64,000 nucleotides of DNA from Procambarus clarkii (lineage: Eukaryota; Arthropoda; Malacostraca; Decapoda; Cambaridae), in the NCBI RefSeq assembly GCF_040958095.1, contig NC_091217.1, positions 12,151,215 through 12,215,214 of the forward strand, in the 5' to 3' direction. Positions 9,033-62,554 of the stretch are shown in pieces. The notes under the pieces were generated by a model that did not search any database, had not been told where the DNA came from, and saw only the letters and a list, made by a program, of their open reading frames with translations. Each line of letters begins with the position of its first letter. Position 1 is the first letter of the stretch. A program made the position numbers and the translations under genes.

Positions 9033-9800
9033 CCCTACATATCCTGCATTGCTCAGAGACAAATTATTCAGTGCTGTTAACACTCTATTGATTGGTGCCA
9101 TTATACCAACTCACTCCTTTTATGATAAATGGCTGAGCAAAAATGCCTACAATCTCATTAAACTCAACATTTCTTTTAAGTGCAATCTTCCTGTCTCCAA
9201 TATTCCCCATTTATCTGTACCCCACCATTCAAGTATCACACACACCTGTCACCAAGAAAGGTAATGAGAATCTTGCTTTTCTCAAAGCTGTCACACGTGA
9301 AACAATTGTCTCTTCCATCGAAAATTTAAGCTCTCACGAGCACTGTGTCTACACCGACGGCTCAGTCCAATCTTCTTCTGGACGGACTGCAGCAGCATGT
9401 AGGTTTTATAGAAATAATATTTGCACACAGACTGTCAGTGTCAGGTTAAACAACTGGCTGACCTCCACACAAGCAGAACTAGCAGCATTACAACTAGCTA
9501 CCAGTACATTAAAATATATTGCAGGAGGAATAATATTTTGTGATTCAAAGTCTGCTCTTCAAGCAATCGAAAACTTCTGGAAGATCAACAGCAAGAATCT
9601 CATACTAGCAATTATAAATGACCTAATTGTTGCACAAAGTAAAGGGTTTCGAATCTCCTTTGTATGGATACCATCACACATAAATATAACCCATCATAAT
9701 GACAGACATTTCAGCCAAATTAACGTGTAACAAAGATGAAGTTGAATTAGACCTGGGTATCCCCATCTCTGTTGTCATGACTATATTGTTCCAAACACTC
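9033..9800 (+). pseudogene. LINE RNase H domain, frameshifted
   Basis: An RNase H type I domain is readable from about 9340. It has YTDGS (first catalytic Asp), QAELAAL (Glu), FCDSKSALQAI (second Asp) and a final VWIPSHINI block. The expected last motif (Asp-x-x-Ala-Lys) is found one frame over immediately downstream of about 9697, followed by a typical LINE C-terminal stretch to about 9790, so a single-base indel has broken the gene. Linker sequence lies upstream in a third frame. The DxxxE/D order and position after an RT tail match jockey/I-clade LINEs. Confidence 0.8.
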
Positions 9801-11601
<1,801 letters not shown>

Positions 11602-11991
11602 GTCGTACCTAATAGCCAGAACGCACTTGTCAGCCTACTATGCATGGCCAAATTTGCCTAATAAGCCAAATTTTCCTGAATTAATATATTTTCTCAATTT
11701 TTTTTCTTATGAAAAGATAAAGCTACCCATTTCATTATGTATGAGGTAAATTTTTTTTATTGTAGTTAAAATTAACGTAGATATATGACGGAACCTAACC
11801 AACCCTACCTAACCTAACCTAACCTAACCTATCTTTATAGGTTAGGTTAGGTTAGGTAGCTGAAATAGTTAGGTTAGGTTAGGTTAGGTAGGTTAGGTCG
11901 TCGAAAAACAATTAATTCATGAAAACTTGGCTTATTAGGCAAATCGGGCCTTGCATAGTAGGCTGAGAAGTGCGTTCTGGCTACTAGGTAC

Positions 11992-11994
<3 letters not shown>
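11602..11994 (-). mobile_element. ~390-bp TIR element with TTAGG arrays, copy A
   Basis: The left end GTCGTACCTAATAGCCAGAA and right end TTCTGGCTACTAGGTACGAC are inverted, with inverted similarity over about 70 bp (CTTCTCAGCCTACTATGCA, GCCTAATAAGCC). The core holds CCTAA-type and TTAGG-type telomere-like runs (about 11790-11900) in opposite polarity. No open frame. It is bounded on both sides by (TA)n and lies in the opposite orientation to copies B-D. Confidence 0.88.

Positions 11995-12086
<92 letters not shown>
11995..12086. repeat. (TA)n microsatellite
   Basis: About 92 bp of pure TA between inverted-repeat element A and the left PLE copy. Confidence 0.98.
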
Positions 12087-12089
<3 letters not shown>

Positions 12090-12118
12090 ACAATGATCAC
12101 AAAAACACTGATCCAAGT

Positions 12119-13214
12119 ATGCAGAATAACCACATATGAAAAATAGAAAATGCTTAACGCGTTTTCGGCTAATTCGCCTTCATCAGAGCAAAGTAGAATG
12201 AAGATAAGATTGCTGATCAGACCTTTATATCCGCCTGGGCAGATCACCTGACCACCAAAAATAAGTGGAGGAAAGGAATTATAAGAAAGAAGGTAACTGG
12301 AGAAGGCCTATTGGCCCATACAAGGCAACTCCTATTAATATCTCCAAGTGCCATACGTGTTAAATGATTGCTATATTGTTTTGACGTGCTATATTGAGGC
12401 TTAAATAGGGATCCAACTTGTACATACCGGGGCTCACATTAAGGCTGTTGTTACAATGTTTGATCAGAGCAGACTCGATCACGTTTCGTTCAACAAAATC
12501 CTTACTTTTAACAATACATTTTGCCGCTGTGAAGTCGATAGAATGATTACATAAACTGGAATGTAAATACAATGCACTGGATTGCTGGGCTGTACGAATA
12601 GCATATGAATGCTGTTTTAAACGCGAGGAAAGAGATTTACCTGTCTGGCCGATGTAAACACATGCACACTCATTACAAGGGATGGAATACACACAACCTG
12701 CTACAGACGAGGGCGAGTTCTTAATTAACATGGACTTAACTGTATTATCATTTTTGAACACTAGATTAATATTAAGGATCTTCAGGGCTGGGGCAAGATT
12801 TACTAGACCCTCAGAATATGGTAATACCAACGAATTTTTCATTTCTGGTTTCGACTTAGTAGTCTGTTTGTAGAAAGTCCTTTTTGCTTGACCAAACGCA
12901 AGATCCAAGATCGATTTTGGGTATTTTAACTTCTTCCCAATTTCAAATATATTTGCTATTTCTTCATCGAAAAATTCCGGACTGCAAACTCTCAGTGCTC
13001 TGAGAAACATACCAGAAAAAACTGCCCGCTTGACCTGAACATGATGATTTGAATAGAAATGTACATACGAGCACACATTGGTAGGTTTCCTATACACATT
13101 GAATTTGAAACTTCTACCAATTCTATGAATCATGATGTCTAAAAAAGGCAGAACACCATTCACTTCGTTCTCAATTGTGAATTTAATTGACGGAACCAGC
13201 GAATTGATTTGATT
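12119..13214 (-). mobile_element. Penelope-like element, 5'-truncated, left arm of a palindrome
   Basis: A PLE copy reading leftwards. Its coding part (12360-13223 on the minus strand, open to the palindrome centre) has lost the catalytic reverse-transcriptase core. It keeps the RT thumb region (PFLDIMIHR, YRKPTNV, RALRVCSP) and a full GIY-YIG endonuclease. The 3' untranslated part (12119-12359) contains a hammerhead-like motif at 12151-12190. It is an exact mirror of 13218-14313 as far as I can compare, separated from it by CTC only. There is no ATG at the 5' end of the frame, consistent with truncation. Confidence 0.92.
12151..12190 (-). ncRNA. hammerhead ribozyme-like motif in PLE 3' region, mirror copy
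   Basis: Exact reverse complement of the motif at 14242-14281, at the equivalent place in the left PLE arm. Confidence 0.6.
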
Positions 13215-13223
13215 CTCAATCAA
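12360..13223 (-). CDS. PLE RT thumb plus GIY-YIG endonuclease (truncated), mirror copy
   Basis: Same protein as the plus-strand copy at 13209-14072. The only differences are at the first few codons, which cross the palindrome centre. No frameshift or stop has accumulated in either arm over 287 codons, which implies a very young duplication, gene conversion between arms, or an assembly foldback. Confidence 0.85.
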   Translation of the reverse strand: MIENQINSLVPSIKFTIENEVNGVLPFLDIMIHRIGRSFKFNVYRKPTNVCSYVHFYSNHHVQVKRAVFSGMFLRALRVCSPEFFDEEIANIFEIGKKLKYPKSILDLAFGQAKRTFYKQTTKSKPEMKNSLVLPYSEGLVNLAPALKILNINLVFKNDNTVKSMLIKNSPSSVAGCVYSIPCNECACVYIGQTGKSLSSRLKQHSYAIRTAQQSSALYLHSSLCNHSIDFTAAKCIVKSKDFVERNVIESALIKHCNNSLNVSPGMYKLDPYLSLNIARQNNIAII

Positions 13224-14072
13224 ATCAATTCGCTGGTTCCGTCAATTAAATTCACAATTGAGAACGAAGTGAATGGTGTTCTGCCTTTTTTAGACATCAT
13301 GATTCATAGAATTGGTAGAAGTTTCAAATTCAATGTGTATAGGAAACCTACCAATGTGTGCTCGTATGTACATTTCTATTCAAATCATCATGTTCAGGTC
13401 AAGCGGGCAGTTTTTTCTGGTATGTTTCTCAGAGCACTGAGAGTTTGCAGTCCGGAATTTTTCGATGAAGAAATAGCAAATATATTTGAAATTGGGAAGA
13501 AGTTAAAATACCCAAAATCGATCTTGGATCTTGCGTTTGGTCAAGCAAAAAGGACTTTCTACAAACAGACTACTAAGTCGAAACCAGAAATGAAAAATTC
13601 GTTGGTATTACCATATTCTGAGGGTCTAGTAAATCTTGCCCCGGCCCTGAAGATCCTTAATATTAATCTAGTGTTCAAAAATGATAATACAGTTAAGTCC
13701 ATGTTAATTAAGAACTCGCCCTCGTCTGTAGCAGGTTGTGTGTATTCCATCCCTTGTAATGAGTGTGCATGTGTTTACATCGGCCAGACAGGTAAATCTC
13801 TTTCCTCGCGTTTAAAACAGCATTCATATGCTATTCGTACAGCCCAGCAATCCAGTGCATTGTATTTACATTCCAGTTTATGTAATCATTCTATCGACTT
13901 CACAGCGGCAAAATGTATTGTTAAAAGTAAGGATTTTGTTGAACGAAACGTGATCGAGTCTGCTCTGATCAAACATTGTAACAACAGCCTTAATGTGAGC
14001 CCCGGTATGTACAAGTTGGATCCCTATTTAAGCCTCAATATAGCACGTCAAAACAATATAGCAATCATTTAA
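13209..14072 (+). CDS. PLE RT thumb plus GIY-YIG endonuclease (truncated)
   Basis: An open frame of 287 codons, open through the palindrome centre. Residues about 1-110 match the PLE RT thumb (SLVPSIKFTIENE, LPFLDIMIHR, YRKPTNV). Residues about 177-255 form a GIY-YIG endonuclease: VY at 178-179, YIG at 190-192, Arg201, His205 and a Glu near 245-250. Paired Cys at 183 and 186 and Cys/His at 225-227 fit the PLE zinc-binding insertion. The enzyme would nick DNA to prime reverse transcription, but the YADD-containing RT core is missing, so this copy cannot be autonomous. The frame starts without ATG and ends with TAA. An identical frame on the minus strand spans 12360-13223. Confidence 0.88.
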   Translation: MILNQINSLVPSIKFTIENEVNGVLPFLDIMIHRIGRSFKFNVYRKPTNVCSYVHFYSNHHVQVKRAVFSGMFLRALRVCSPEFFDEEIANIFEIGKKLKYPKSILDLAFGQAKRTFYKQTTKSKPEMKNSLVLPYSEGLVNLAPALKILNINLVFKNDNTVKSMLIKNSPSSVAGCVYSIPCNECACVYIGQTGKSLSSRLKQHSYAIRTAQQSSALYLHSSLCNHSIDFTAAKCIVKSKDFVERNVIESALIKHCNNSLNVSPGMYKLDPYLSLNIARQNNIAII

Positions 14073-14308
14073 CACGTATGGCACTTGGAGATATTAATAG
14101 GAGTTGCCTTGTATGGGCCAATAGGCCTTCTCCAGTTACCTTCTTTCTTATAATTCCTTTCCTCCACTTATTTTTGGTGGTCAGGTGATCTGCCCAGGCG
14201 GATATAAAGGTCTGATCAGCAATCTTATCTTCATTCTACTTTGCTCTGATGAAGGCGAATTAGCCGAAAACGCGTTAAGCATTTTCTATTTTTCATATGT
14301 GGTTATTC

Positions 14309-14313
<5 letters not shown>
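13218..14313 (+). mobile_element. Penelope-like element, 5'-truncated, right arm of a palindrome
   Basis: The mirror copy of the left PLE, reading rightwards. The arm runs from the AATCAAATCAATTC centre to GGTTATTCTGCA, after which a (TA)n array begins. All coding and 3' features are those of the left arm. The right copy lacks the ~30-bp segment (12087-12118) that separates the left arm from its own (TA)n. The 3' tail holds the hammerhead-like motif at 14242-14281. Confidence 0.92.
14242..14281 (+). ncRNA. hammerhead ribozyme-like motif in PLE 3' region
   Basis: The order matches a minimal type I hammerhead: TGCT (stem I, 14242-14245), CTGATGA (14246-14252), one extra A, GGC...GCC (stem II, 14254-14256 with 14263-14265), GAA (14266-14268), palindromic AACGCGTT (stem III, 14269-14276), A17 at 14277, then AGCA (14278-14281) pairing with TGCT. 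PLEs are known to carry minimal hammerheads that act as dimers through a palindromic stem III. The extra base before stem II is a deviation, so activity is uncertain. Confidence 0.6.

Positions 14314-14397
<84 letters not shown>
14314..14397. repeat. (TA)n microsatellite
   Basis: Pure TA joining the end of the right PLE arm to inverted-repeat element B. Confidence 0.98.
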
Positions 14398-14400
<3 letters not shown>

Positions 14401-14783
14401 GTACCTAATAGCCAGAACGCACTTCTCAGCCTACTATTCAAGGCCCGATTTGCCTAATAAGCCAAGTTTTCATGAATTAATGTTTTTTCGTCTACCTAAC
14501 CTACCTAACCTAACCTAACCTAGCTTTTTTTGGCTACCTAACCTAACCTTACCTATAAATATAGGTTAGGTTAGGTTAGGTAGGGTTGGTTAGGTTCGGT
14601 CATATATCTACGTTAATTTTAACTCCAATAAAAAAAATTGACCTCATACATAGAGAAAAGGGTTGCTTTATCATTTCATAAGAAAAAAATTAAAGTAAAT
14701 ATATTAATTCAGGAAAACTTGGCTTATTAGGCAAATCGGGCCTTGAATAGTAGGCTGAGAAGTGAGTTCTGGCTACTAGGTAC

Positions 14784-14786: not shown

Positions 14787-14858
<72 letters not shown>
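14787..14858. repeat. (TA)n microsatellite
   Basis: Pure TA joint between copies B and C. Confidence 0.98.

Positions 14859-15241: not shown

Positions 15242-15313
<72 letters not shown>
15242..15313. repeat. (TA)n microsatellite
   Basis: Pure TA joint between copies C and D. Confidence 0.98.
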
Positions 15314-15793: not shown

Positions 15794-15857
15794 CAGAGGA
15801 ATCAGAAAGATTCCTCGCCATAAAAGGTTCATGGTGAGGAACCTTTCATGATCATGA

Positions 15858-16252
15858 TTCAAAAGTATTGGATAGTTGAGACTATTTATGCCCAATACCC
15901 GATAGCACTAGGTAGTCACAGATCAGAAATAATTTTCATCAAATCAATTCACTATAGGGGAGAACTCGAGTGTCAATTGTAACCACAAACTTGTATAAAA
16001 CACAAGCCGATTGTATCAGAAAGGCTCGTCAGTGGTGTCGTTGCTTTTGTCAGTCTAAAGTTCGAACCTCTCCATGGTGAGGAGTCTTTCTGATACAATC
16101 AGCTTGAGGTTTATACAAGTTTGTGTTTACAATTGATACTCGAGTTCTCCCCTATAGTGAATTGATTTGATGAAAATGTTTTCTGATCTGTGACTACCTA
16201 GCGCTATCGGGTATTGGGCATAAATAGTCTCGACTATCCAATACTTTTGAAT
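15858..16252. repeat. foldback repeat, arms about 165 bp
   Basis: The left arm (about 15858-16023), running from TTCAAAAGTATTGGATAGT to TGTATCAGAAAG, is inverted at about 16087-16252 with few mismatches and a ~63-bp spacer. A smaller related inverted segment (GAGGAATC / TTCATGGTGAGGAACC) precedes it at 15793-15850. There is no coding capacity, and I cannot assign a family. Confidence 0.85.
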
Positions 16253-23315: not shown

Positions 23316-25066
23316 CCTAGTGCAGGCAGTGCATCCACAACATCCTAGTGTAGGTAGTGCAGCCACAACAACCTAGTGTAGCCACAACATCCTAATGCAG
23401 GTAGTACAGCTACAACATCCTAGTGTAGGTAGTGCACCCACAACATCCTAGTGTAGGTAGTACAGCCACAACATCCTAGTGTAGGTAGTGCAGCCACAAC
23501 ATCCTAGTGTAGGTAGTGCAGCCACAACAACCTAGTGCAGGTAGTGCAGCCATAACATCCTAGTGCAGGTAGTACAGCCACAACATCCTAGTGCAGGTAG
23601 TACAGCCACAACATCCTAGTGCAGGTAGTGCAGCCACAACATCCTAGTGCAGGTAGTGCAGCCACAACATCCTAGTGCAGGTAGTGCAGTCACAACATCC
23701 TAGTGCAGGCAGTGCATCCACAACATCCTAGTGCAGGTAGTGCATCCACAACATCCTAGTGTAGGTAGTGCAGCCACAACATCCTAGTGTAGGTAGTGCA
23801 GCCACAACATCCTAGTGCAGGTAGTGCAGTCACAACATCCTAGTGCAGGCAGTGCATCCACAACATCCTAGTGCAGGTAGTGCATCCACAACATCCTAGT
23901 GCAGGTAGTACAGCCACAACATCCTAGTGCAGGTAGTGCAGCCACAACATCCTAGTGCAGGTAGTGCAGCCACAACATCCTAGTGTAGGTAGTGCAGCCA
24001 CAACATCCTAGTGCAAGTAGTGCAGCCACAACATCCTAGTGCAAGTAGTGCAGCCACAACATCCTAGTGTAGGTAGTGCAGCCACAACATCCTAGTGTAG
24101 GTAGTGCAGTCACAACATCCTAGTGCAGGTAGTGCAGCCACAACATCCTAGTGCAGGTAGTGCAGCCACAACACCCTAGTGTAGGTAGTGCAGCCACAAC
24201 ATCCTAGTGTAGGTAGTGCAGCCACAACATCCTAGTGCAGGCAGTACATCCACAACATCCTAGTGTAGGTAGTGCAGCCACAACATCCTAGTGTAGGTAG
24301 TGCAGCCACAACATCCTAGTGTAGGTAGTGCAGCCACAACATCCTAGTGTAGGTAGTGCAGCCACAACATCCTAGTGTAGGTAGTGCAGCCACAACATCC
24401 TAGTGTAGGTAGTGCAGCCACAACATCCTAGTGTAGGTAGTGTAGCCACAACATCCTAGTGTAGGTAGTGCAGCCACAACATCCTAGTGTAGGTAGTGCA
24501 GCCACAACATCCTAGTGTAGGTAGTGCAGCCACAACATCCTAGTGTAGGTAGTGCAGCCACAACATCCTAGTGTAGGTAGTGTAGCCACAACATCCTAGT
24601 GTAGGTAGTGCAGCCACAACATCCTAGTGTAGGTAGTGCAGCCACAACATCCTAGTGTAGGTAGTGCAGCCACAACATCCTAGTGTAGGTAGTGCAGCCA
24701 CAACATCCTAGTGCAGGTAGTGCAGCCACAACATCCTAGTGTAGGTAGTGTAGCCACAACATCCTAGTGTAGGTAGTGCAGCCACAACATCCTAGTGCAG
24801 GTAGTGCAGCCACAACATCCTAGTGCAGGTAGTGCAGCCACAACATCCTAGTGCAGGTAGTGCAGCCACAACATCCTAGTGCAGGTAGTGCAGCCACAAC
24901 ATCCTAGTGCAGGTAGTGCAGCCACAACATCCTAGTGCAGGTAGTGCAGCCACAACATCCTAGTGCAGGTAGTGCAGCCACAACATCCTAGTGCAGCCAC
25001 AACATCCTAGTGCAGGTTGTGCAGCCACAACATCCTAGTGCAGGTAGTACAGCCACAACATCCTAG
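23316..25066. repeat. 28-bp satellite array, about 62 units
   Basis: 28-bp units of type CATCCTAGTGTAGGTAGTGC plus AGCCACAA, alternating between GTGTAGG and GTGCAGG variants, with rare ACAACC or GTACAGCC forms. The left edge is degenerate. The array continues after a 1.4-kb insert at 26476. Confidence 0.97.
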
Positions 25067-26475
25067 TGTAACACTGTAAAAGTGTTTGGTTTAGTTTAAT
25101 ACATACATAGAGTACATGAGTCACAGACAAGGATCTGAGAGGCGCCAGTTTGTCGGCCTGAGATCTCACACCTCAAAGCGTTAATGACCTCAAGTGACCT
25201 GAGGTCAGATCATGAGAATTTCACCTTGCTTCCGCTAAGCTTATAATTGTAGTCTGGTAACCATTGTAATGACCCTGATTGTAATATCTCGCCTTGTATC
25301 TATCTCGACCGCGCACCCGCTACTACCACTGAGCTAACCGTGCAATCTCCGCTCTTTCTATGGTAATAACAGATGCTATACCGATCATGTAAGATGTTAA
25401 CACTCGGGCCGTCATACGAAGACGTAAACCAGTACACAGAGGAAGGAGAGAGAGAGAGAGGAAGAGGGAGGCAGAGCGAGAACGAGAGCAAGGGAGGGAG
25501 AAAGAGAGCGAGTGAGGGGCGAGGGAGAGTGAGACACTAGTGAGGGAGAGTGAGACAGAAAGATAAGAGATAATCGTAGTCACAACCTATCGTATGAGTT
25601 ACCGAGTGACGCTGCCACCACCCTGAGTTACCGGACAGGGGACCGGAGTGAGAGTCGTAGGTCTTGCAGATGGAATAACCTACCAGGACAGGTGTAGGGA
25701 ACAATTGAACGGTACAAGGATCCTGGCCTGACACTCGAATAATCCTGACCACTTGGGAACTATGGTGTACACAAGAATAAGGCGGGACACCCCCAATACT
25801 AATACCTCAACACGGAAAACGAACGGGGGGAGGAGTACGGGATAATTAAGAACACTAGGTCACTGGGGCAAAGGGGACGGTAGGCCCAATATCACTAGGC
25901 AAGGAACCATTAATACACATTTAATAACACTTAATATCTGACTTTATTTGAAATAATTAAATAAGACACTCCCTAACTATATTCCCTACTAGAGGCCAAG
26001 AGTACTGAATGAGGTGCTTTAGTACAAGAGAGCCGTACTTACTCGTATGTTGTTCCACCGTTTCCGGGAGATGATGTTCCTTCCCCGAGTCCACACACAC
26101 CTTCCTACTGGGCTGCGCCCAATCAACCCTCTCACCCCAAACCCTCACTAATTACTTCACTATTCATTTCTTTCCTTTCGTTTTCTCTTATACGTTTGTG
26201 GCAGTGATTCTGTATTCTAGAGTTCTCTCTAGAGTTTCGGGTAGCTGATCCAGTTACGACGCCTTGTAGTCTTAGCACCTAGGTCGTCAAATACCTAGGT
26301 TACAAGGTGTTGAACGATAGAGGTTGCCTTAGGATCTCTGGGAGTGCTCTAGAATAGTTAGCTAACTGGGGACGGGATAACGGACTAGAGAGAGCTGTTT
26401 CCCCCGGCCTCGTTAGTTAACTGGGGGGGTGGAATAATGGACAAGATAGAGCTATTTCCCCCAACCCCCGTTACA
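25067..26475. mobile_element. 1.4-kb LTR-like insertion (possible solo LTR) in the satellite
   Basis: The insert begins TGTAACACTG and ends CGTTACA, so it has TG...CA ends inside a short inverted repeat (TGTAAC/GTTACA). It is flanked by CTAG on both sides (25063-25066 and 26476-26479). Removing it with one CTAG restores the satellite phase. No polymerase frame is present inside. These are the marks of a solo LTR with a 4-bp target duplication. A box A-like TTAGCTCAGTGGTAG on the minus strand near 25345 has no matching box B. Confidence 0.7.
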
Positions 26476-26930
26476 CTAGTGTAGGTAGTGCAGCCACAAC
26501 AACCTAGTGCAGGTAGTGTAGCCACAACATCCTAGTGCAGGTAGTGTAGCCACAACATCCTAGTGCAGGTAGTGTAGCCACAACATCCTAGTGCAGGTAG
26601 TGTAGCCACAACATCCTAGTGCAGGTAGTGTAGCCACAACATCCTAGTGCAGGTAGTGTAGCCACAACATCCTAGTGCAGGTAGTGTAGCCACAACAACC
26701 TAGTGCAGGTAGTGTAGCCACAACAACCTAGTACAGGTAGTGTAGCCACAACAACCTAGTGTAGGTAGTGTAGCCACAACAACCTAGTGCAGGTAGTGTA
26801 GCCACAACAACCTAGTACAGGTAGTGTAGCCACAACAACCTAGTGCAGGTAGTGTAGCCACAACAACCTAGTGCAGGTAGTGTAGCCACAACAACCTAGT
26901 ACAGGTAGTGCAGCCACAACAAACATACAC
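26476..26930. repeat. 28-bp satellite array, continuation of about 16 units
   Basis: Same 28-bp unit as 23316-25066, but dominated by the ACAACC and GTGTAGCC variants, so the two sides of the insert have diverged in variant content. Confidence 0.96.
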
Positions 26931-27640: not shown

Positions 27641-27808
27641 CAGCCCGTTCTCGACTCAAGTCCATTACATCCAGCAGTCGACCCCCACGGACGCATTCAT
27701 AAATTTTTACATGCTATCCATTCAAAACTGGAATTTTCGCAAATATTAATTAATATTATAATATATTACCGTGTGTATATCACGAAAATAAACACGTGAT
27801 TAAGAATG

Positions 27809-27990
27809 TGACAATGTCAGACCACGGAGGAAAAATGAAACAGGAAATTTCCTTAAGTACTTTCGTATATTAAATACATCTTCAGAAGGTCACACCTTCA
27901 GAAGAAGGACCTTCTGAAGATGTATTTAATATACGAAAGTACTTAAGGAAATTTCCTGTTTCATTTTTCCTCCGTGGTCTGACATTGTCA
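27809..27990. mobile_element. inverted pair of PLE-type tails, 83-bp arms
   Basis: The arms 27809-27891 and 27908-27990 are perfect inverted copies with a 16-bp spacer. Each arm runs outward from a hammerhead-like motif through TTTCATTTTTCCTCCGTGG. Orientation is divergent, as in the large PLE palindrome at 12.1-14.3 kb. Confidence 0.8.
27910..27948 (+). ncRNA. hammerhead ribozyme-like motif
   Basis: CCTT (27910-27913) pairs with AAGG (27945-27948) as stem I. CTGAAGA (27914-27920) fits CTGANGA. One extra T is followed by GTAT/ATAC stem II (27922-27925 and 27931-27934), GAA (27935-27937), palindromic AGTACT stem III (27938-27943), and T at the cleavage position 27944. A mirror copy lies on the minus strand at 27851-27889. 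Confidence 0.55.
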
Positions 27991-28534
27991 TATTACCATA
28001 TTGTGCATATATAGGCATAGGTTAGGTGTTTAGGTTTTGTTGGCGATTATTTATATTTGTAGTACGTGGGTGAAGCATTTATAGTGTTGTAGTTCGAACA
28101 AAACTCGTCAGTGAAGCACTTGTTCCGGAAATGTTCGAACGTCATCAGTTGTGAATCCAGGCGGTCCTCCAAACAAAGACACAAAAGAGATTCCATCCAC
28201 CCGCCAAACCCCCTGTTTATGAATAAAAAACGTTTTACACACGACTCACACCTGATTTTGTTCGAACACTTCCAGAACAAGTGCTTCACTGACGAATTTT
28301 GTTCGAACCACAACGCTATAAATGCTTCACCCACGTACTACAAATACAAATAATCGCCAACAGAACCTAAACACCTAACCTAATCTAACCCCTATGAATG
28401 TACAATATGCAAATATATTACAATATTAATTTATATTTGAGAAAACTCCATTTTGAATGAACAGCATGTTAAAATTTATGAATGCGTCTGTGGGGTCGAC
28501 CGCTGGATGTAATGGACTCGAGTCAAGGACGGGT

Positions 28535-38645: not shown

Positions 38646-41600
38646 CTGCAAGAAAATGTTGCATTATTAAAACATGTTAGTAAATGAGTACAGCTTTCCC
38701 TAGTTAACAAGGCATAGTCAACTGTGGGCGATATTGACATTATGCAAATACAGGTACAGTATCATATATCTGGGATGAAGGAAATTTTAATCTAATCTAC
38801 TAATAAGTTATGATTTTCTTCTACAATTGCATCATCTCCAAACATAAAATTACTGTATGTATGTATGTATGTATGTATATTTTTTTTCACACTATCTACA
38901 TCCCCCCCCTACCCACAACCTCCCCATATCCATCTACAAACCCTCACCCTATCCTCCTACACACTCTCCCCATCTCCTCCTCGTCCATACACATGCCCTT
39001 CCCTGTTTCCTCCCTTCCTACCCACATACATACCCTTTTCACATTTCCTGGCTCTGTGCCTGTTATGACCCAGCCTAACCAGTTCGGACTGGACATGCTG
39101 AGGTCATACATTCAAGTGTCAATGTAATTGACTTTGCCATTAGTCAGTCAATGTGAACTCTAACTTCACTAGAGTTTCTTGACTGTCATATTTCCAGTCA
39201 TTGTGGACTTTGACTTTTAAGAAGAGTTTTTGACTTTACCATTTGTCAGTCCAGTTGGGACTTAGTTTTTTGGAAGGCAAAGTGATAGTTCACTGACTTG
39301 TGTTTATTGATGTTCATGCCGAGACATTACCTCCCCTTTCCCCACTCGGGTTATAAAACATCACCACCCACCTTGTCACAACCTACCAGCCAGTCTTTAG
39401 TTGTCAAGTGTACTAATGTTATTAGGTGATCTTGCGTTAATTTACTTCATTGTTACTTGGCTGTGACTCGCCCTTCACATGGATTTTCTCCTGGAGATTT
39501 TCTCATCGCTATATCACGATAATGTGATTTCTCTGTGTAATAACGTTAATATTGCAACACTAGATCAAAGAAGCATAGCTAGTTCCTCTTTCTCAAAAGT
39601 AATCATTAATCTATGAAACACTGAAAACATCTGATTAGTAGTCAAAGGTGCAAACATTAATATACAAATTTACAATACAATAAAATTGTTAATCCTTTTT
39701 TTTCAGGTAAAATTACATTGCAATAGTAAAATGAAACTTTAAGAGTACTGTATAATACTTGATTCGTAATCATAATTTAAAGTTTTAATTATTACCTAAA
39801 GCAAAAAATTATTTTGCTATTAAATGTTAAAGAATCATTTTAAGAATCTGAAATTATGATAAATTTCTCTCGATTCTGATACTGATTACCTGTACTGTAA
39901 AATGCTTGATTCTTTTGATTCTCGATACCAGTTCCGATTAATTGCCCCATCACTAAGACAAACACAGCAGTTGAATATGTTGTTTAAATGAATTATATCA
40001 TAAATGTATAGACTGTACAGTACATTATTTTCAACAATAAATACAATCTTGAAAATTAATGCAGCAATACAAATTCCACTCACCATGTTACTGGAATACA
40101 TTTTTCTTCTATGATTTTCTCTGCAGTGGACCAGGAAAACCTTACAATTCCCGGAAAACCAAATACTTGGTCAAGTGAGTTAATCAAGAAGTTCTTGGTT
40201 ACAGCATCTAGAAAGGAATAAGAAAGCTGCTAGACTGAAAAAATTATGGGGCAACAAGTTTAACATTATAGGTTTTAAAACTGAAGTTTGCAGTACTGTA
40301 CTTTTACCATGTAGCCCAAACAATTTTCCAGTCTCAATACTATTCTGAAAGACCCAACATAATTCTTCCTTTCTCCCTGATTATATCTTAGACACACACT
40401 CTTTGTGGAACTAGTTGCCTTCACATACAGTTTTCTAAACTATGAGATATTTAGAGTCTGAATGAATGCATACAACACTTGCCAAGTTACACTATCCACT
40501 AGCAAATAAAAAAGTATTGTAGGAGCTGCATGTTTTAAATGAATGGGAGCAACTTCAGCAAATATTTATATGGGTATTAGAGGGTGATAAAAAAACCAGT
40601 GTTGAATGTAATGAAACACCATTTTCTGGGTGAGCCCTGGAGGCTCCCTGGAGCTTATCGGGCTAATGTATGTTATATTAGACCGGGACATTAGCTATGG
40701 AGTTCATACCTACCAGGAACCAGTGCCAGAACCTGGTCCCTTCAGAGAGGTTTCCAGGAGCAATGGCCCTGGAAACCCCCTTGTGGTTGGGGTTTTCCTT
40801 ATCTGCCATCGACTAGGGTTAGGCACCCAGAAAGGTAGGCATAACAAAACAAACCCCACATGGTAAGAAACTAAAACAAAAAACCAAACAGAGAGGTAGA
40901 AATTCCCTACAATCCCAAGGAAACAGGCAAACATCACACTTTACTGCCACGCCGCTCGTCTGCGCAGCCCTCCCTTCCCCAAAAGGGGGAGGGGAGGGGC
41001 CTCGGTCCTCACCACGCTGGCTGCCAAGAACCAGTTCGGAAGCTAAGCTTCAACCAATGTGAAAAAAAACGGCGACCGGTGGGAGGGAGGGTTGCCAGGG
41101 AGCCTTCGGGGCTCACCCAGAAAATGGCATTTCATTACAATCAACGCTGGTTTTCTGTGGGGAGCCCCTACGGCTCCCTGGAGCTACATACCCAAAGAGA
41201 AGGAAAAGAAAGGGCTGACCCAGGAGGCGCCCGCCACAAACTCCGCAATGCGAAGTTGAGACAACAGGCAGCAACCTACAACCCAAAGCAACACAAGAAC
41301 GCACAGGAGCAGACATGCTCACAAAATAATGGGCGGCCAGGAACCTGTGTGACCCCCAAATCCTCGCACCCGAAATGAGTCCAAGACATCACCAAACATG
41401 GCAGCGAAAGTTGCAAATGTCCGAACGGCACGGGCGCAAGGATAAACCGCAGGCTGGTAGACTTAAGAACCCTGCGGACAACATGGGAGACCTGAGCCCT
41501 GAAACAGGGAACGAGGAGAATCGGATCAACCCAAAGTGCATCCCCAGCCACGGCACGCAGGTAACGGCGAAGAGCCGCAACCGGACACAACACATGATGC

Positions 41601-44600
41601 ATCTCTGGCTAAACCAACCAAGCATCAATAACCCAAGGACCCCTCCGGAAAGCAGCCGACTCGGCCGTCGCCAGAAGGACGGAGAAAGGCTGCAAATGTA
41701 CAAACCTACCACCAGTACCAAAGGAGCAGAAAACCCGTGCTGAAGGAGAGCCGGAAGCTTCCCGACCTGACCCGCAGAGGCCAATGCCAACAAAATATGG
41801 CCTTTGAAAAACAATCTTGAACCGAAGGGGCTACAACAAACTGAGGAGAGGAAAGATAAGAGAGCACCCTGATCAAGGATCAGGATGGCTCAGGCGGCGC
41901 ATGAACAGGCAAGAGGTGAAACAAAGCACGAGAAAGTGTGTGGAACAGGGCAGATGTGACGTCCATCCCGAACGCAAGCCGGAGTAGCTCCACTAGCGCC
42001 GCACGATACGAGGCGACAGTAAGAAGCATCAATTAACGGTCCTGAAAAAATCAAGAAAGGACAAGACAACCTATGTGAAAGAGAAGACAACCTACGAAGA
42101 GCAAGAAAATGGCGAAGAGAAAAGCCAGGAAACGTCAAACTGTCGCCGAGACGAAGCTCGCAGGTGGGACACCATCAACAAAGCCACCTGATCACCATAG
42201 AGATGGTGATACACTCGCATCAAAAGACCAGACACAAAGAGCTAAGGAGAAGACCGAACCAGCCACGTACAGGACCGGTCCAACCTGTCGAAAGAGGCGG
42301 AGCCGCGGGAAACGTCCCGGGTTCGGACACCTATCAAGCAGCGTCTGAAAACAAAGCTGGGCTGGTCAACAAGTAAGGTTATATTACATTGTTGACACGA
42401 GTGTGTCAGTTTATTGTGTTTATTATTGTTTTATTGACACGAGTGTGTGTCAGTGTGTTGTGTTCATTAGTGTGTGTACTATATTAAGTGGTTTCTGTGA
42501 TCCGGTGTACTTTGGTTTAGTGTAATTATTGTTGGTTTCTGTGACCCGTATTGTTGCGACTCAGCATCTGCATTGCGTATTGTTGCATTGTTCTCTGTGT
42601 CCCCGTACAATACATTTTGTGTTCATTTATTCTCGAATTGAACCCGGGGGAGCCCAAACCACCACATTTGCCAGCGGATATACACCACAGAAAGGGCAAA
42701 GTACTGCACCCAGACAGAACCCCCAGGAAAACGGCCAAAACGGACCGAAAACTGAGGGACAAGGTGTGGGAGCAAGCATAAACAGACAGGGACACTAGAG
42801 CCCAAACACCTGGGCACAGACCCAAACACAGAAAATGCAAAAACCAGTGTAAAAACCAACACCCAAGCGTTCTCAGAGGGACAGAAGAAGGGCAGAACAC
42901 CCTAGAAAAAGCAAAGAATTGGCAACAGGAGGATAAAACCCATAAAAGTGAAAAAACTCACCCAAAATGCGAGCTCCCACACCCAGGCACATGTAAACAA
43001 ACCGCAGCGCTGCCCTGTTGGCCAAGCGGGAAAACCCACAGAAAGAAAATGGCCACCAGAAACAAGGAGCCGTGACCGATGCAATAGATCCGAAAACACA
43101 CCAGCAAATGCGGGAAGTCAACAGACTAGAGGGATGAAAAACCCCGCCAAGAAGCAGAAGAACCAGGCAGGGGCAAACAGCCTCAGAACTGCTAGCGGGC
43201 CTCCCCCACAGCCCCGGGACAGAGCCGTCCTCCACGCCCTCTGCCCTTAAAGAAAAGGAAGGGTCCAGGGAAAAGGCAGCAAAGAAAGGGCTGCTGGTAA
43301 GACCCCTGAAACCTTAGAAAATATATATATGTATGTATATTATTATGAGCCCCATAATTTTCAGCATAGAGATGTTCCACACATTGAACTATATAAATTC
43401 CACAAATTACTCACGTTTGAATAATATTATAGCAAAAAAACAAAGAAGAAATGAACGAGAAACAATAAAATAATTGTGAAACGTTATATTCGCAGCAACT
43501 GCCTCCCCCACGGGGTGGCGAGGCTGCGTGACCCCGGGCGCTCCATCGCTCAATGCCCATAATTTGCTCAACTTCCCAGCTCCATCATAGCTGAAGTATG
43601 TCACATACAACATTTTTGTTTAATTTCCAGTGATCAAAGACTATTTTAACAATATAAGAAGTGAAAATAATTTTTTGGAAAGAATTTATTTTCGGAGCAC
43701 CACATGGGTGTCATCAATTTTAGAAGCAGACAAATGTAAGAGCTCAGAAAATCTTTTACTCACCTCCGGGGTATCCACTACCCCAATTGTCAATTTTAAT
43801 TCCTTCAGGAAATTCCCATTTTTTCAAGGCTCTATCACGTGCAACCTAGAATATGAAACATTATTCAAAATTAAAAAAAATATTATTCCATGAATTGGAA
43901 TAATAATAAAGGCATTTCTACTAAATCTTTGGAACTATATAGTCATTCCATGCCACATCATCATAAACAAGTGGACGATCTCAGATTTTCATGAAATTTG
44001 GCAAGATAGTAGAGGACACAAAGTAATTTGCAAATGCAAAATTTTAGCACCCAGTAATACAGCAGGATTGCCAATGTGAAAACAAATACGACTTCTTCCC
44101 CGCCAAAATATGCCACCTACGATTTTTTTATTATTTTTCCTGTGGTCAAGTAACACAAATGAACAGTTTTATAAGATAAATTTTTGTTTTTGTTTTCTTA
44201 CAACTGGGCATGTTGCAGGCTATAATTGCAAGAGCAGCCCAGGGGTTAAGGCAGTTTCAAGTGGCCTCATATTCTAGAAAACGATTAGAGGAAAAGTTAG
44301 CCTCACATCTAGTAATCTACAGACTGTTGGAGTGTTGCCATATCGTTATTGACTTTCACAGGAGTGTTGCCATCTGTAAAATAATTGAGATATTTTCAGG
44401 CCGTTACTTTGTAGCTTTAATTTTAGTAAACGGTGAATAATTTTAAGGTGGTATTTGCTTCCTCTCCCTCTTTATTTATCTGTATGTTTGTCTGAGATTT
44501 ACAGAGCACAAAACAATACTGAATAAGTAGCAAACTCAAATGAGTATACTGCAACAAGAAGAATTTATCTGGCCTAAGATGAGTACAGGTCAGATTGGCG

Positions 44601-47600
44601 ACCTTAAAACTTTGTTACTTTTGTGACGGAGAAGATGGCCGAGTGAAGCTTGAAGACATGAGATATGAAGGTCTCCATGTCTATGGGCACTTTGGATGAA
44701 GGCATGGGAGCAGTTCGCTTACCTTACTTGCCACGGGGGCAAGGCCAGGTTTAGGGAACTCTAACCCAGTGGGCAATTAAGTAAGTCGGCTTCCTCTGGG
44801 TGGACAGTGGCACCGAGGGAGAGGAGTAAGACCCGAGGGGAGTGCTAGAGTGAGAGAGTGCTGTGGCACTAGTGGCTTGCTATCCCCCAAACTACTATTA
44901 TCTCTCTCAACAAACTCTAGGCTCCACTACACTACAAATATAGAGAGCTTTTTAAATTCATAAGATTTTAGCCAATGTTCTTGCAGAACAAGAATATAAC
45001 AAATGCTAAAACTTTAAAGCTTTCTGACATTCATACATTCAGGTTTTGAACTCATCACTGTTTAACATTAAAATCTTCTACACTTTTCTCCTTTTTATAT
45101 TTGTTATCCTTAGTCTCATTTATTCCCATGATCTGAGGCACTTCAAGCTTAATAACATTAAATACTCACTTTTGCACAGATACTTGCACCAGATACACAT
45201 GGAAACAGAGCATCAGCTTTCTTCTCAACTGTCACCTTGATTGTTGGAAAGACTTCTTGTAATTTAGCCTGGTACAATGGAAAGAAAATTTGTATAATGA
45301 TGAAAATAAATTGTAATAATACGTAATGCATAATTTTCTAATTAAATTTTGATTTACAAAACTTGCTACTGGTAAGCTAATACATATCTGCAAATTGGTA
45401 AGTGGGTGAGGGAGTTTGATCTACTATAAAATGACTCCTAAGCTTGTGAAAAGCTCCCTTTCCAAGCATGGTATTTTGCCACTTAAAAATACATAAATCC
45501 TTCGCACAGTAATAATAATTGTGACTCACATGCAGAACACACACACATACACTGTCGTAAAGGAAGAAGTATCCTTAGCAAGAGACATGTATGGGGTTAC
45601 ATGTCATGTCTGCGGTCGTTACAGTATTACAGATACTACACCACCGCAAACTCCGCAAACAACAAAGGACAAAAAACCAGCGTTGAATGTAACGAAATGC
45701 CATTTTCTGGGTGAGGCCCGGATGCTCCCTGGAACTTATCGGACTAATGTACAGTGGTACCTCGGAATGCGATTGTCCCTGTATGCGAGGTTTTCGGAAG
45801 GCGAGGTGTATTTACTCCAAAAATTTGTCTCAGAAGGCGAGGGTTACTTCGGGAGGCGAGTTTGGACGCGAGTTTGTTGATACGCGTACAGCCGACCTAG
45901 CGCGTTCGTCGCCCCTCCGCCCCGCCGCCCCTCAGTTTATTATTGTCTCGCGCTCAGTGACTACCCCCACATCAATTCTTCTCGCGTATTTTCAGTGTTT
46001 TGTTGGATTTTTGGTGATTTGTCTATACAATTTGTTATTATATATCTCACCATGGGTCCCAAGAAAGCCAGTGGTAAGGATAAAGGCCAGAAAGCTCATG
46101 TGAGGATGACAATTGAGGAGAAACAAGAGATCATTCGGAAGTATGAGAACGGTACACGTGTTGTTGAACTTTGTAGGCAGTACAACAAAGCCACATCAAC
46201 AATATGCACTATACTTAAGAAGAAAAATAAGATTATGGGTGCTAAAGTGGCAAAAGGAGTAAGAACATTAACGGCACAAAGACCACAAATACTTGAAGAA
46301 GTGGAAAAGTTGTTATTAATTTGGATACACGACAAGGAGTTGAGGGGTGATAGTGTTTCGGAGGCCATTATTTGTGAGAAAGCCAGGGTGTTGCACGAAG
46401 ACCTTCTAAAGAATACCCCTGCAACGAGTGATGCAGATAAGAAAGAGTTTAAGGCAAGCAGGGGCTGGTTTGAAAAATTTAGAAAGAGAAGTGGTATCCA
46501 TAGTGTTACAAGGCATGGGGTTATGTGATGTGATTATGAAAGGGGACTCCCCTTCCAAACAGTAACTCCTCTCCTCCTCCCCCCTCCTCACCATCTTCCA
46601 TACGCCTACAGCACTCGACAGCAAGGTAAGTAATAACTGGAACACAGTTTTGTAGGTTTATTTAGATGAATTAGGTAAATTAGGTATAAAAATTTAGTTT
46701 GATGTGGGGTTTTTGGGGTAGTCAGGAACGGATTAATTCAAACCCCTTTATTTCTTATGGAGAAATTAACTTCGGAATGCGAGTTTTCGGAAGGCGAGGC
46801 GTCTCCAGGAACGGATTAAACTCTTATTCTGAGGTATGCCTGTATGTTATATTAGACCAGGACATTAGCTAAGGAGTTCAGACCTACCAGGGACCAGTGC
46901 CAGAACCTGGCCCCTTCAGAGAAGTTTCAGGGAGCAATGACCCTGGAAAACTCCCTTGTGGTTGGGGTTTTCCTTATCTGCCATCGACTGGGGTTAGGCA
47001 CCCAGAAAGGTAGGCATAACATAACAAACCCCACATGGTAAAAAACTAAAACATAAAACCGAACAAAGAGGTAGAAACTCCCTACAATCCCAAGGAAACA
47101 AGCAAACAAGCCAAACATCACACTTTACTGCCGCGCCGATCGACCGCGCAGCCCTCCCCGACCCGAGAGGGGAATGAGGGAGCTCCGGACCTCACCACAC
47201 CGGCTGCCTAGCATCAGTTCGGAAGCTAAGCTTCAACCAACGCGAAAAAAACGCAGACCGGTGGGAGGGAGGGTTGCCAGGGAGCCTGCGGGGCTCACCC
47301 AGAAAAAGGTGTTTCATTACATTCAATGCTGGTTTTCTGTGGGGAGCCCCTACGGCTCCCTGGAGCTTCATACCCAAAGAGAAGGAAAAGAAAGGGCTAA
47401 CCCGGGAGGTGGCCGCCACAAAATTCACAATGCGAAGCCAAGACAACAGACTTCAACCTGCAATCCAAGGCAACAAGAACGCACAGGAGCAGACACGCGC
47501 ATAAAGAACGAGCGGCCAGGAACCTGTGTGACCCTCAAATCCTCGCACCCAAAATGAGCCCTAGACATCACCAACACAGCAGCGAAAGCTGCAAACGTCC

Positions 47601-49558
47601 GAACAGCACGGGCGCAAGGATAGACCGCAGGTTGGAAGATTTAAAAACTCTGCGGACGACCTGGGAGACCCGAGCCCTGAAACAGGGAACGAGGGGAACC
47701 GGATCAACCCAAAGCACATTCCCAGACACGGTACGCAGGTAACGGCAAAGAGGTGCAACTGGACAACACAGGATGCACCCCTGGCCGAACCAATCAGGCA
47801 TCAATAATCCAAGGACCCCTCCGGAAAGCAGCCGTTTTGACTGTCGCCAGAAGGACTGAGAAAGGCTGCAAACATACAAACCTACCAGCAGAACCAAAGA
47901 GCAGAAACCTCTGCACCGGAAGAGCCGGAAGCTCCCCGACCCAACCCGCAGAGGCCCATGCCAATAAAATATGACCTATGAAAACCAAACTTGAACCGAA
48001 GGGGCTACCACAAACTGAGGAGAAGAGGGCACCCTGATCAAGGACAAGGATGGCTCAGGCAACGCATGAGCAGGCTGGAGGTGAAACAAAACAGGAGAAA
48101 GTGCACGGAACGGGGTAGATGCGACGTCCACCCTGAACGCAAGCCGGAGCGGCTCCGCCAGCACCGCACAAAATGATGCGACAGTAAGAAACATCAAATA
48201 ACTGTAATCCTGAAAACCCAAGAAAGGACAAAACAACCCGATGCGAAAGAGAAGACAACCTACGAAGAGCAAGAATAGTGCATAGAAACACCAGGAACGT
48301 CATACTGTCGCCGAGACAAAGCTCGCAGGTGGGACACCATCAACGAAGCCACCTGATCACCATAAAGATGGTGATACCCACATCAAAATACCAGATGCGA
48401 AGAGCCGAGGAGAAGGCCAAACCAGTCACGTACAGAACCGGTCCGACCTGCCAAAAGAGGCTGAGCCGCGGGAAAACGCCCTGGGTTCGGACACCTATCA
48501 AGCAGCGTCTGAAAATAAAGCTGGGTCGGCCACCAAATTACCATGAGGACTATTCTCCTAGGGAATGGACTCCAACCGAGCCAGAACCCGAAGCAACAGC
48601 TGGACCGGGAGAAGAGAAACAGGTACAGAGCACCACTTGGTTTCCGAACCCCTTGGGGACGAGACCCGTCGGTTAACATGTAAGTTCGTATACGAGAAAT
48701 TGAGGGGAAAAAATAAACTAGAAATGTAAAAATAAATTTTTCCGAAAAAATTCACGAAAAAAACTCTAGGGGAAAAAATCGACATGTTCATAGCGTAAAT
48801 GCGACTGTGTTTTGTTTGTACTCACCAATAAGTGAAGTCCTGATCCGCTTTATAAAAGTCCTTAATTGTTCCTAACTGATTATTAAGACGTCTGGCAAAC
48901 ATCCTCTGGATGTTTCCTGCCAGCCTGCAGGCACATCCTGCCTAAAATATACGATGCTGTACTGTACATTTAAGAAACAAATCTGGGTCACAGGTCTGTG
49001 GAGTGTGGTTAGGCTTACGGAGTCAGCCGGTCCCTCCCCCACCACCGATACACCTCCCCCTCTCCCCCCACCCCAAACCCATACACACACACACACACAC
49101 ACTCAAAGGTCACGTGGTTCATGGTTCACTTCAACACCCATATATCGCTTCCTGCCTGCCTGCCTCCTTCCCAGCCTGCAAGCCTGCCTGCCTCCTTCCC
49201 AGCCTGCAAGCCTGCCTGCCTCCTTCCCAGCCTGCAAGCCTGCCTGCCTGCCTGCCTCCTTCCCAGCCTGCAAGCCTGCCTGCCTGCCTGCCTGCCTCCT
49301 TCCCAGCCTGCAAGCCTGCCTGCCTGCCTGCCTCCATCCCAGCCTGCAAGCCTGCCTGCCTGCCTGCCTCCTTCCCAGCCTGCAAGCCTGCCTGCCTGCC
49401 TGCCTCCTTCCCAGCCTGCAAGCCTGCCTGCCTCCTTCCCAGCCTGCAAGCCTGTCTGGCTGCCTGCCTCCTTCCCAGCCTGCAAGCCTGCCTGCCTGCC
49501 TGCCTCCTTCCCAGCCTGCAAGCCTGCCTGCCTGCCTGCCTCCTTCCCAGCCTGCAAG

Positions 49559-60974: not shown

Positions 60975-62554
60975 TTATACTATGTGGTACAAAGGGAGAT
61001 GTGTTATACTCAAATTCTGTCAGTTGAAATGTAACCAATCACAGGCAAGTAGGCCTCTGACGTCATGCGAGACAGAGGAGCATCAAGCATGCTCCCAGCA
61101 GCCTCAGTCGTCCTCACAGACCCAGAGTAGGTGGACCTCGGCTGGCCAGTTATACACCTGTTTGCCTCACTCAATAAATATATACAGAAGCGACTACTGT
61201 GTCTACATTCAACCCGAACAAGGCAAACGAATACTGGTAGCAGCAGTGGGATCCAGAAATTTTTTTCTGGAAGCAAAAGTTCCAGTACCCAGCATCGCCT
61301 CGTGTTCCAGCCAAAACCGCCGCCACCGCCACCGCCATAAGCCGCCATCCTGCCACCCACGCATCAAATATTGTGCCAGACCGGGGTCCTGCCATCAACC
61401 ACTACTCCAGGCCAACGTTTCAGAAGTAAGGATCAATATTTTCCTGTGAGAACGGGCACTCATCAGTGAGGAGGAAGGAAGCTTCCCGCGCCAGCCATTT
61501 TTGAACCTCGCGCCACCACGTGGGAACCACCTAGTGCACCCACCACCACCACCACCGCCACCCAAGCTGACAGTATCAAGCTTCGTGAGGGTGCAAGCTA
61601 CTGCAATCGTCGTCAGCCATCGTCGCAAGTATCAACTGGTTATTCCATCGTCGCAATATTGTCGTCGTCAGAATTTATCTTCGTGCTTCTAGCGTGAACA
61701 GTGTGGGGTCCCTGAGTCTCGCGCCACCGCCGCCAGGAGCGCTGCCATCGCATCCAGTTTGTAAACACGCCTCACATGGGCCTCTTCCGATCTTCACGAC
61801 GCTTCTCCTACTTTGGCTACTGGTGATCCTCATAAATTACAACCCTGAGATAAGTAATTGCTAGTTGAGAACAACGTGCCAAGTGTTAAAAAGTGACTTA
61901 TGTAATAATTCCCATAATATCCTGTGAATTAACCATTCAGTGACTTGTTAAATATTGGAGCCGGTTTAGTACTCCAGAGGCCCACAGTTTCTCTGAGACA
62001 TTTCAATATTCCCTGCATATGATTCCATTATTCATTAATTGTTACTAGTGTCATTACTGAATTCAAAGGTGAGAGAAGTAAGAAATAATTGTTCTAGCAG
62101 TTTATTTTGCATAAAAGAAATTTGTTTTTGAGATTTCCATAGACAATAGAACATAGAAATTTTTTTTTATATTTCTCCAGACCTAACTTGAAATTTATCC
62201 TTTAAGCATTTTATTTTAAACTTTTACCATAGGAGTTATATACATTCCTGTGTCCAGTTTATGTGCTACATCCATATTTCTTGCATTGCCACTTGTTGTG
62301 TTGAATCTTTTTAATGAAATTTTGCAATTGCATTTCCCAGTTTTTATTCTAAATTGCTGTGCTTAGTCTGGTTTAATTAATTTACATACATCTAATTCCA
62401 GTCATTTTTTAATGAAAGATTGCTAAATTTAGTTTACAATTGCTTGTTCTTAATTATTTTCTTGCCTAGCCCAATTTAATAATTTTATTTCTGCCATTTT
62501 TACTTTAGCCAAGTTGATATTTTTTTGTGTTTATTTTTGTGTATACTATTTCTG

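Follow-up and report, generated by a model that had tools for sequence, protein, structure and literature searches.

A near-perfect palindrome of two Penelope-like element copies in Procambarus clarkii as the probable product of one two-ended insertion into an (AT)n microsatellite

We analysed a stretch of 64,000 nucleotides (nt) from Procambarus clarkii (contig NC_091217.1, positions 12,151,215 to 12,215,214 of the forward strand; hereafter the window, in whose numbering positions are given), in which two divergent, truncated copies of a Penelope-like element (PLE) form a near-perfect palindrome. The palindrome is probably a single two-ended insertion of this element into an (AT)n microsatellite, where both cut ends would have primed complementary DNAs (cDNAs) that were then end-joined. 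The head-to-head insertion architecture of PLEs is already known and the window palindrome is a further example of it; the rule that one end carries a short tail and the other does not, together with the record left at the junctions, may be new, as far as a literature check limited to open-access papers allows.

The two arms of the palindrome (12118-13214 and 13218-14314) measure 1097 nt each, are complementary except at 12789/13643, and are separated by a centre of CTC at 13215-13217; chance cannot account for an inverted repeat of such length and fidelity. The preliminary description, made from the letters of the window, had recognised the near-perfect palindrome, its centre and the two divergent truncated PLEs correctly, with arms one base shorter than those found here. 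We used as a ruler (U) one natural 2639-bp unit of the element from another locus (L008), and positions preceded by U refer to it. The left arm is a 5'-truncated PLE copy on the minus strand which, with its tail included, spans U1511-2639, and the right arm is an untailed 5'-truncated copy on the plus strand, spanning U1506-2608 if counted from 13213. The tail (12087-12117, minus strand; U2609-2639) is confined to the left arm: it corresponds to a left-only segment of about 30 bp previously placed at 12087-12118, which is in fact 31 bp long and part of the PLE itself. At the junction (13213-13217), the arms share a TT, readable as U1506-1507 or as the complement of U1511-1512, and the CTC that follows is U1508-1510 and collinear with the right arm; the tailed arm ends at U1511 and the untailed arm at U1506, 5 nt apart. 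Each arm also contains an open frame of 293 codons (12363-13241, minus strand; 13191-14069, plus strand; 12360-13241 and 13191-14072 from stop to stop) that encodes a C-terminal part of the PLE protein with a GIY-YIG-like motif, the first nine codons of each frame falling in the opposite arm and the centre. The two frames differ by a single residue at the centre (E versus L), and the sole mismatch between the arms is silent. The earlier account of identical, intact frames of 287 codons holds in that both are open, but they are C-terminal fragments of 293 codons and not quite identical.

The insertion target is preserved on both sides of the PLE pair, as (AT)46 on the left (11995-12086) and as an (AT)n remnant on the right (14315-14397; Tandem Repeats Finder array 14312-14397). 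The right end of the pair passes directly into (AT)n, and the left end has the 31 extra bases before (AT)46. Next to these remnants lie the left half (11903-11994) and the right half (14398-14489) of the (AT)n-centred satellite unit that received the insertion, with 96-98% identity to the left halves and 95-98% to the right halves of its neighbours; the flanking elements are part of a repeat of about 461 bp. Inverted flanks (91% over 90-92 bp) are likewise found at the AT runs 14787-14858 and 15242-15313, among 11 long AT runs in the window. Judged from these alignments, the PLE pair occupies the (AT)n in the middle of a satellite unit that was palindromic beforehand, with the neighbouring units standing in for the empty site. 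The mirror-placed yet diverged TTAGG-containing flanks reported before (11863-12080 versus 14312-14529, 96%) were recovered, and given this location they need no separate explanation. Of the two options offered earlier, that the palindrome is younger than its flanks or was homogenised relative to them, the first stands, whilst homogenisation is not needed: the satellite is palindromic in both neighbouring units.

Using one window arm as query, 3445 candidate places were detected in the 4.03-Gb genome, and among the 40 of these that were scored there were 39 full-length matches outside the window at 99% identity. Twenty genomic stretches around copies of the family were retrieved (L001-L020), of which L008, L009 and L014 contain head-to-tail arrays of units with a period of about 2639 bp, that is, tandem copies creating pseudo-long terminal repeats (pLTRs). 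The natural copy L008 encodes a frame of 786 amino acids with a reverse transcriptase (RT) domain (PF00078, E 7.2e-11, residues 325-516), a Pfam match that is absent from the truncated frames of the window arms. A GIY-YIG domain (PF01541) was matched in both window frames (E 1.9e-4, 22.1 bits) just under the cut-off of 22.6, and the C-terminal match in L008 was weak (19.9 bits). As in endonuclease-containing PLEs, the insertions also have inverted ends arranged head to head, one of which may carry a short tail. The element is thus most likely a retrotransposon of the canonical Penelope-like type, with a predicted RT and C-terminal GIY-YIG. Relatives of the window protein were not found by tblastn in viral_contigs and genome_contigs (where records from the same genome were possibly excluded), and a search of solved structures gave a single match that is not meaningful (E 0.91).

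The ends of the insertions follow a simple pattern. Untailed ends are located at U2608 and tailed ends at U2639, and in L001-L020 and the window all 29 ends with an exact end word lie within (AT)n; eleven of these loci, plus the window, show both ends, one tailed and one untailed. Genome-wide, exact ends in (AT)n were found at 994 untailed and 1370 tailed places (controls: 0). Both ends sit at a native TGC|ATAC: the two sites in U are TGC|ATACTTGG and TGC|ATACATGG, 34 nt apart, and an (AT)n primer end could pair with the three bases ATA at each start site. Because ATA at the untailed end is indistinguishable from the target, the visible tail is 31 bp and not 34. For the pairing of ends we counted outward-facing pairs less than 12 kb apart in the stretch covered by both listings, each of which gives the first 100 places (57 untailed and 100 tailed ends in that stretch): 43 of the 45 listed pairs were mixed, two were two-tailed and none two-untailed. 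The ratio becomes 40 of 42 once five rows that duplicate two insertions are merged; duplication was tested at five loci (L059-L063), and other rows among the 45 may hold further duplicates. One pair, 7 kb across, is possibly not a single insertion, and 33 are only 172-249 bp long; 38 of the 45 were retrieved for closer study.

A two-ended insertion would give rise to this architecture as follows. Both ends of the cut (AT)n would prime reverse transcription of PLE RNA, with one cDNA starting at the distal site, which would provide the 31-bp tail, and the other at the like-worded site 34 nt upstream. The two antisense cDNAs would run inwards, stop early at U1511 and U1506 of the 2639-nt unit and be joined 3' end to 3' end via the 2-bp microhomology, leaving a head-to-head near-palindrome. 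We infer this order of steps, as well as cleavage of both target strands, an origin of the arms from the same RNA or from transcripts of one source copy, and joining by a polymerase theta-like activity.

The sibling insertions provide several lines of evidence on these steps. In 15 of the 20 long dimers outside the window, the arm lengths differ by at least 91 nt. This count excludes the window, which had been selected, L034, which duplicates L033, complex loci and those with fewer than two mapped arms (L005, L006, L008, L009, L013, L014, L016 and L017) and the short dimers turning at U2527 (L021-L028, L035 and L039-L058); L003 was kept despite an extra 69-bp piece at its centre. At 14 junctions inspected, the arms overlap by 1-6 bp in six cases, are separated by filler in six and are blunt in two, giving 12 of 14 with overlap or filler. 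The fillers are partly copied from nearby: in 13 of them (11-91 nt), 6-mers found no more than 60 bp away account for 69% of the length, compared to 25% after shuffling and 30% after swapping of the fillers, and 11 of the 13 exceed the swapped control (L026 and L049 do not). The fillers of L003, L009, L017, L031 and L037, and those of the duplicates L054 and L055, lie outside this test. The 91-bp filler of one short dimer (L035:90-180) is rich in TATATAGAAT-like repeats, which resemble copies of the (AT)n target and of arm-end sequence.

A second group of dimers turns at a different point. The 31-base centre of the palindrome occurs once in the genome as an exact match, so that the search for other dimers with the same centre, as proposed in the preliminary description, gave none. 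The palindrome does not stand alone, however: 571 genomic places show a head-to-head turn of the same family near U2527 with at most 14 variable bases (control: 0), and the first 50 of these comprise 34 distinct junctions. The arm limits in 27 retrieved short dimers, a count that includes the duplicates L049, L054 and L055, peak at U2527 (15 untailed and 13 tailed arms). This position is the A of TTCATTC, which we take to be initiator-like. Among these 34, both arms reach U2527 and at least two filler bases are present in 22: of their 44 arms, 21 continue with C, 13 with the native G, six with T and four with A, and the non-native C is found on both arms in seven of the 22 junctions. A single-base centre (C/G), not assignable to an arm, is seen at nine further places. 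Reverse transcriptases often add an extra C at a capped 5' end, and U2527 is probably the 5' end of the RNA, reached separately by two cDNAs.

Remobilisation of short dimers was also considered and rejected. L059, L060 and L061 (contig C3, at about 33.52, 56.73 and 54.70 Mb, with L061 inverted) share a 20-nt filler, but they also share their flanks and are duplicates of one insertion; the same holds for L062 and L063 (contig C4, about 49.25 and 61.01 Mb). Either segmental duplication or assembly duplication would explain these copies.

The variants carried by the arms bear on their source. Seven variants are common to both window arms and occur in no other examined copy; three subfamily variants are shared as well, a single site distinguishes the arms, and the window is a near-symmetric case in which the arms have hardly diverged. 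In an alignment of 99 copies or arms (from the window and 58 retrieved loci), there are 23 variants that exactly two sequences carry: 16 of these fall within one locus (seven in the window, eight in other dimers, unequal ones included, and one in a tandem array), and seven are split between loci, six of them being one deletion. Since two-copy variants lie mostly within one locus, it appears that the arms of one dimer tend to share a source.

Several observations weigh against priming of two cDNAs at the two cut ends. Two of the listed pairs are two-tailed, and 53 tailed and 14 untailed listed ends have no partner by the exact patterns. The 1-6 bp overlaps at the junctions may lie within what chance would give. 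The native G continues past U2527 on 13 of the 44 arms, and on at least one arm in nine of the 22 junctions. The arms stop within 15 nt of each other in five of the 20 long dimers (0.40 in shuffles), more than two independent truncations predict: the pooled P of 5e-6 is too optimistic, as it combines two samples drawn differently, of which the list-derived one gives 4 of 8 (P 7e-4) and the long-arm loci 1 of 12 (P 0.24). In L010 (contig C53, about 6.69 Mb), the arms are alike near the centre, whilst the outer part has ten left-only differences (six private, four subfamily variants) and no right-only ones; not every dimer can hence derive from one template, and L010 looks as if one arm were recombinant or converted. 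Finally, the window centre taken alone, with its 3-nt loop and 2-bp stem, fits fold-back self-priming of one cDNA equally well.

The boldest form of the two-primer reading is that a single PLE RNA bridges both cut (AT)n ends. Each DNA end would pair with one of the two UGC|AUAC sites 34 nt apart and be extended, which would give a tailed cDNA and an untailed one, in many cases with the same RNA 5' end as their stop, prior to end joining. The mixed-end rule and the private variants shared by the window arms support this, whilst L010 and the lack of a clear arm-length bias (tailed arm longer in seven, untailed in 12, equal in one of the 20 dimers) weaken it, and we regard it as a possibility to be held tentatively. 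If true, the PLE tail, which is optional and unexplained, would be the trace of an inherent asymmetry between two primers.

Priming by a single end followed by fold-back is unlikely, although less so than the other rival explanations. Here, the 3' end of one cDNA would snap back (TT/AA stem, 3-nt loop) and prime the second arm; such self-priming has been proposed for PLEs (PMC3846280), the window centre is perfectly symmetric with a tiny loop, the native sequence at this point forms a hairpin, the window arms differ at a single site, and both the pooled and the list-derived sample show an excess of near-coincident stops. Run-off copying should however duplicate the tail, and in 43 of the 45 listed pairs the second end has no tail and sits at the exact alternative start site. 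The simple prediction that the tailed arm is always longer was rejected by the arm lengths given above, with neither arm type consistently longer; unequal arms and filler are common, and the extra C is present on both arms in seven of the 22 distinct junctions.

A DNA-level event after insertion, either inverted duplication of one PLE copy or gene conversion between the arms of two older copies, is very improbable. The near-identity of the window arms with their seven shared private variants, the likeness of the L010 arms near the centre only and the position of the locus among inverted satellite repeats would suit it, but an inverted duplicate would carry both the tail and the (AT)n junction, whereas the right end has its limit at the untailed site, which is in use at 994 places, and such an event is not needed for the mixed-end rule across the listed pairs. 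The striking palindrome needs no exotic cause at the level of DNA. An assembly or library foldback artefact is the least credible explanation: missed adaptors and foldback reads typically give perfect palindromes, but here the symmetry breaks at exact biological points (the tailed and untailed ends), the flanks differ, as the preliminary description had already argued against a simple assembly foldback, and the genome contains many head-to-head pairs with different centres, that of the window occurring once.

Comparison with known systems separates what is shared from what is particular to this family. In L1 twin priming, two primers at one target yield inverted cDNA, with adjacent parts of the template inverted without duplication; the use of two primers at one target would be alike, but both window arms cover the same stretch (U1511-2608) and are not adjacent, non-duplicated segments as in an L1-type twin-primed inversion. 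Polymerase theta-mediated end joining makes use of short microhomology and of filler copied from nearby sequence; overlaps of 1-6 bp, candidate microhomologies, and filler that as a group is locally templated are seen here, with the difference that the joined ends would be cDNA ends and the enzyme is putative.

The Penelope elements of Adineta vaga (PMC3846280) have head-to-head inverted pLTRs, one of which optionally carries a tail of 31 bp, and palindromes at the inverted junction, for which self-priming is favoured. They resemble the present family in the combination of RT and GIY-YIG (the latter putative here), in tandem and partial-tandem copies, in inverted pLTRs, in the one-sided 31-bp tail and in the palindromic junction. 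They differ in being low in copy number, compared to 2364 exact ends in (AT)n here, where 33 of the 45 listed pairs measure 172-249 bp; the filler and the unequal arms found here favour two cDNAs. For the anole PLE PAc (Poseidon, Anolis carolinensis), PMC11167929 describes cutting and extension of both strands of an AT-rich target, with the tail lying between two RT start sites and the RT start internal to the RNA 3' end. All of these features have likenesses here: both-strand cleavage and extension as inferred above, an AT-rich target, two start sites that delimit the tail and an internal start. Unlike in PAc, both sites in P. clarkii read TGC|ATAC, with a 3-nt match to the (AT)n target, and each is used once in 43 of the 45 listed pairs. 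According to the same paper, what follows reverse transcription in PLEs still awaits validation. Hundreds of countable insertions in this genome record how PLEs synthesise the second strand and form inverted copies: the two start sites, the stops at the probable RNA 5' end and the filler turn the rival models (fold-back, two cDNAs, bridging RNA) into countable predictions.

Some further features were noted within the palindrome and the window. By eye, a hammerhead-ribozyme-like motif (CTGATGA...GAAA) is present at 14246-14277 (plus strand) and at the mirror position in the left arm, 12155-12186 (minus strand). Such motifs are frequent in the pLTRs of endonuclease-containing PLEs but do not define them. 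In Rfam, no hammerhead match was returned up to E 5 and up to E 10, no family reached its gathering score, and the top models were microRNA precursors placed on the palindrome's own central hairpin. No second PLE copy was found elsewhere in the window. Two other self-complementary stretches are present: an imperfect palindrome of about 0.4 kb (15857-16252; arms of 175 nt, 94% identical and 46 nt apart), which adjoins the satellite block and has no PLE match, and a 190-bp stretch at 27805-27994 (95%). A direct duplication of 1.7 kb (40667-42372 and 46841-48536, 86% identical) has between its copies a frame with CENP-B_N and HTH_Tnp_Tc5 domains (45881-46528). A 197-codon frame at 9137-9730 contains an RNase H domain (E 1.3e-9) and is probably a retrotransposon remnant, whilst a 442-codon frame at 62483-63808 is gag-like, its zinc-knuckle match (E 0.00081) being weak and slightly below the cut-off. 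Arrays of a related 28-bp minisatellite occupy 23316-25070 and 26476-26922, with about 63 and 16 copies, respectively.

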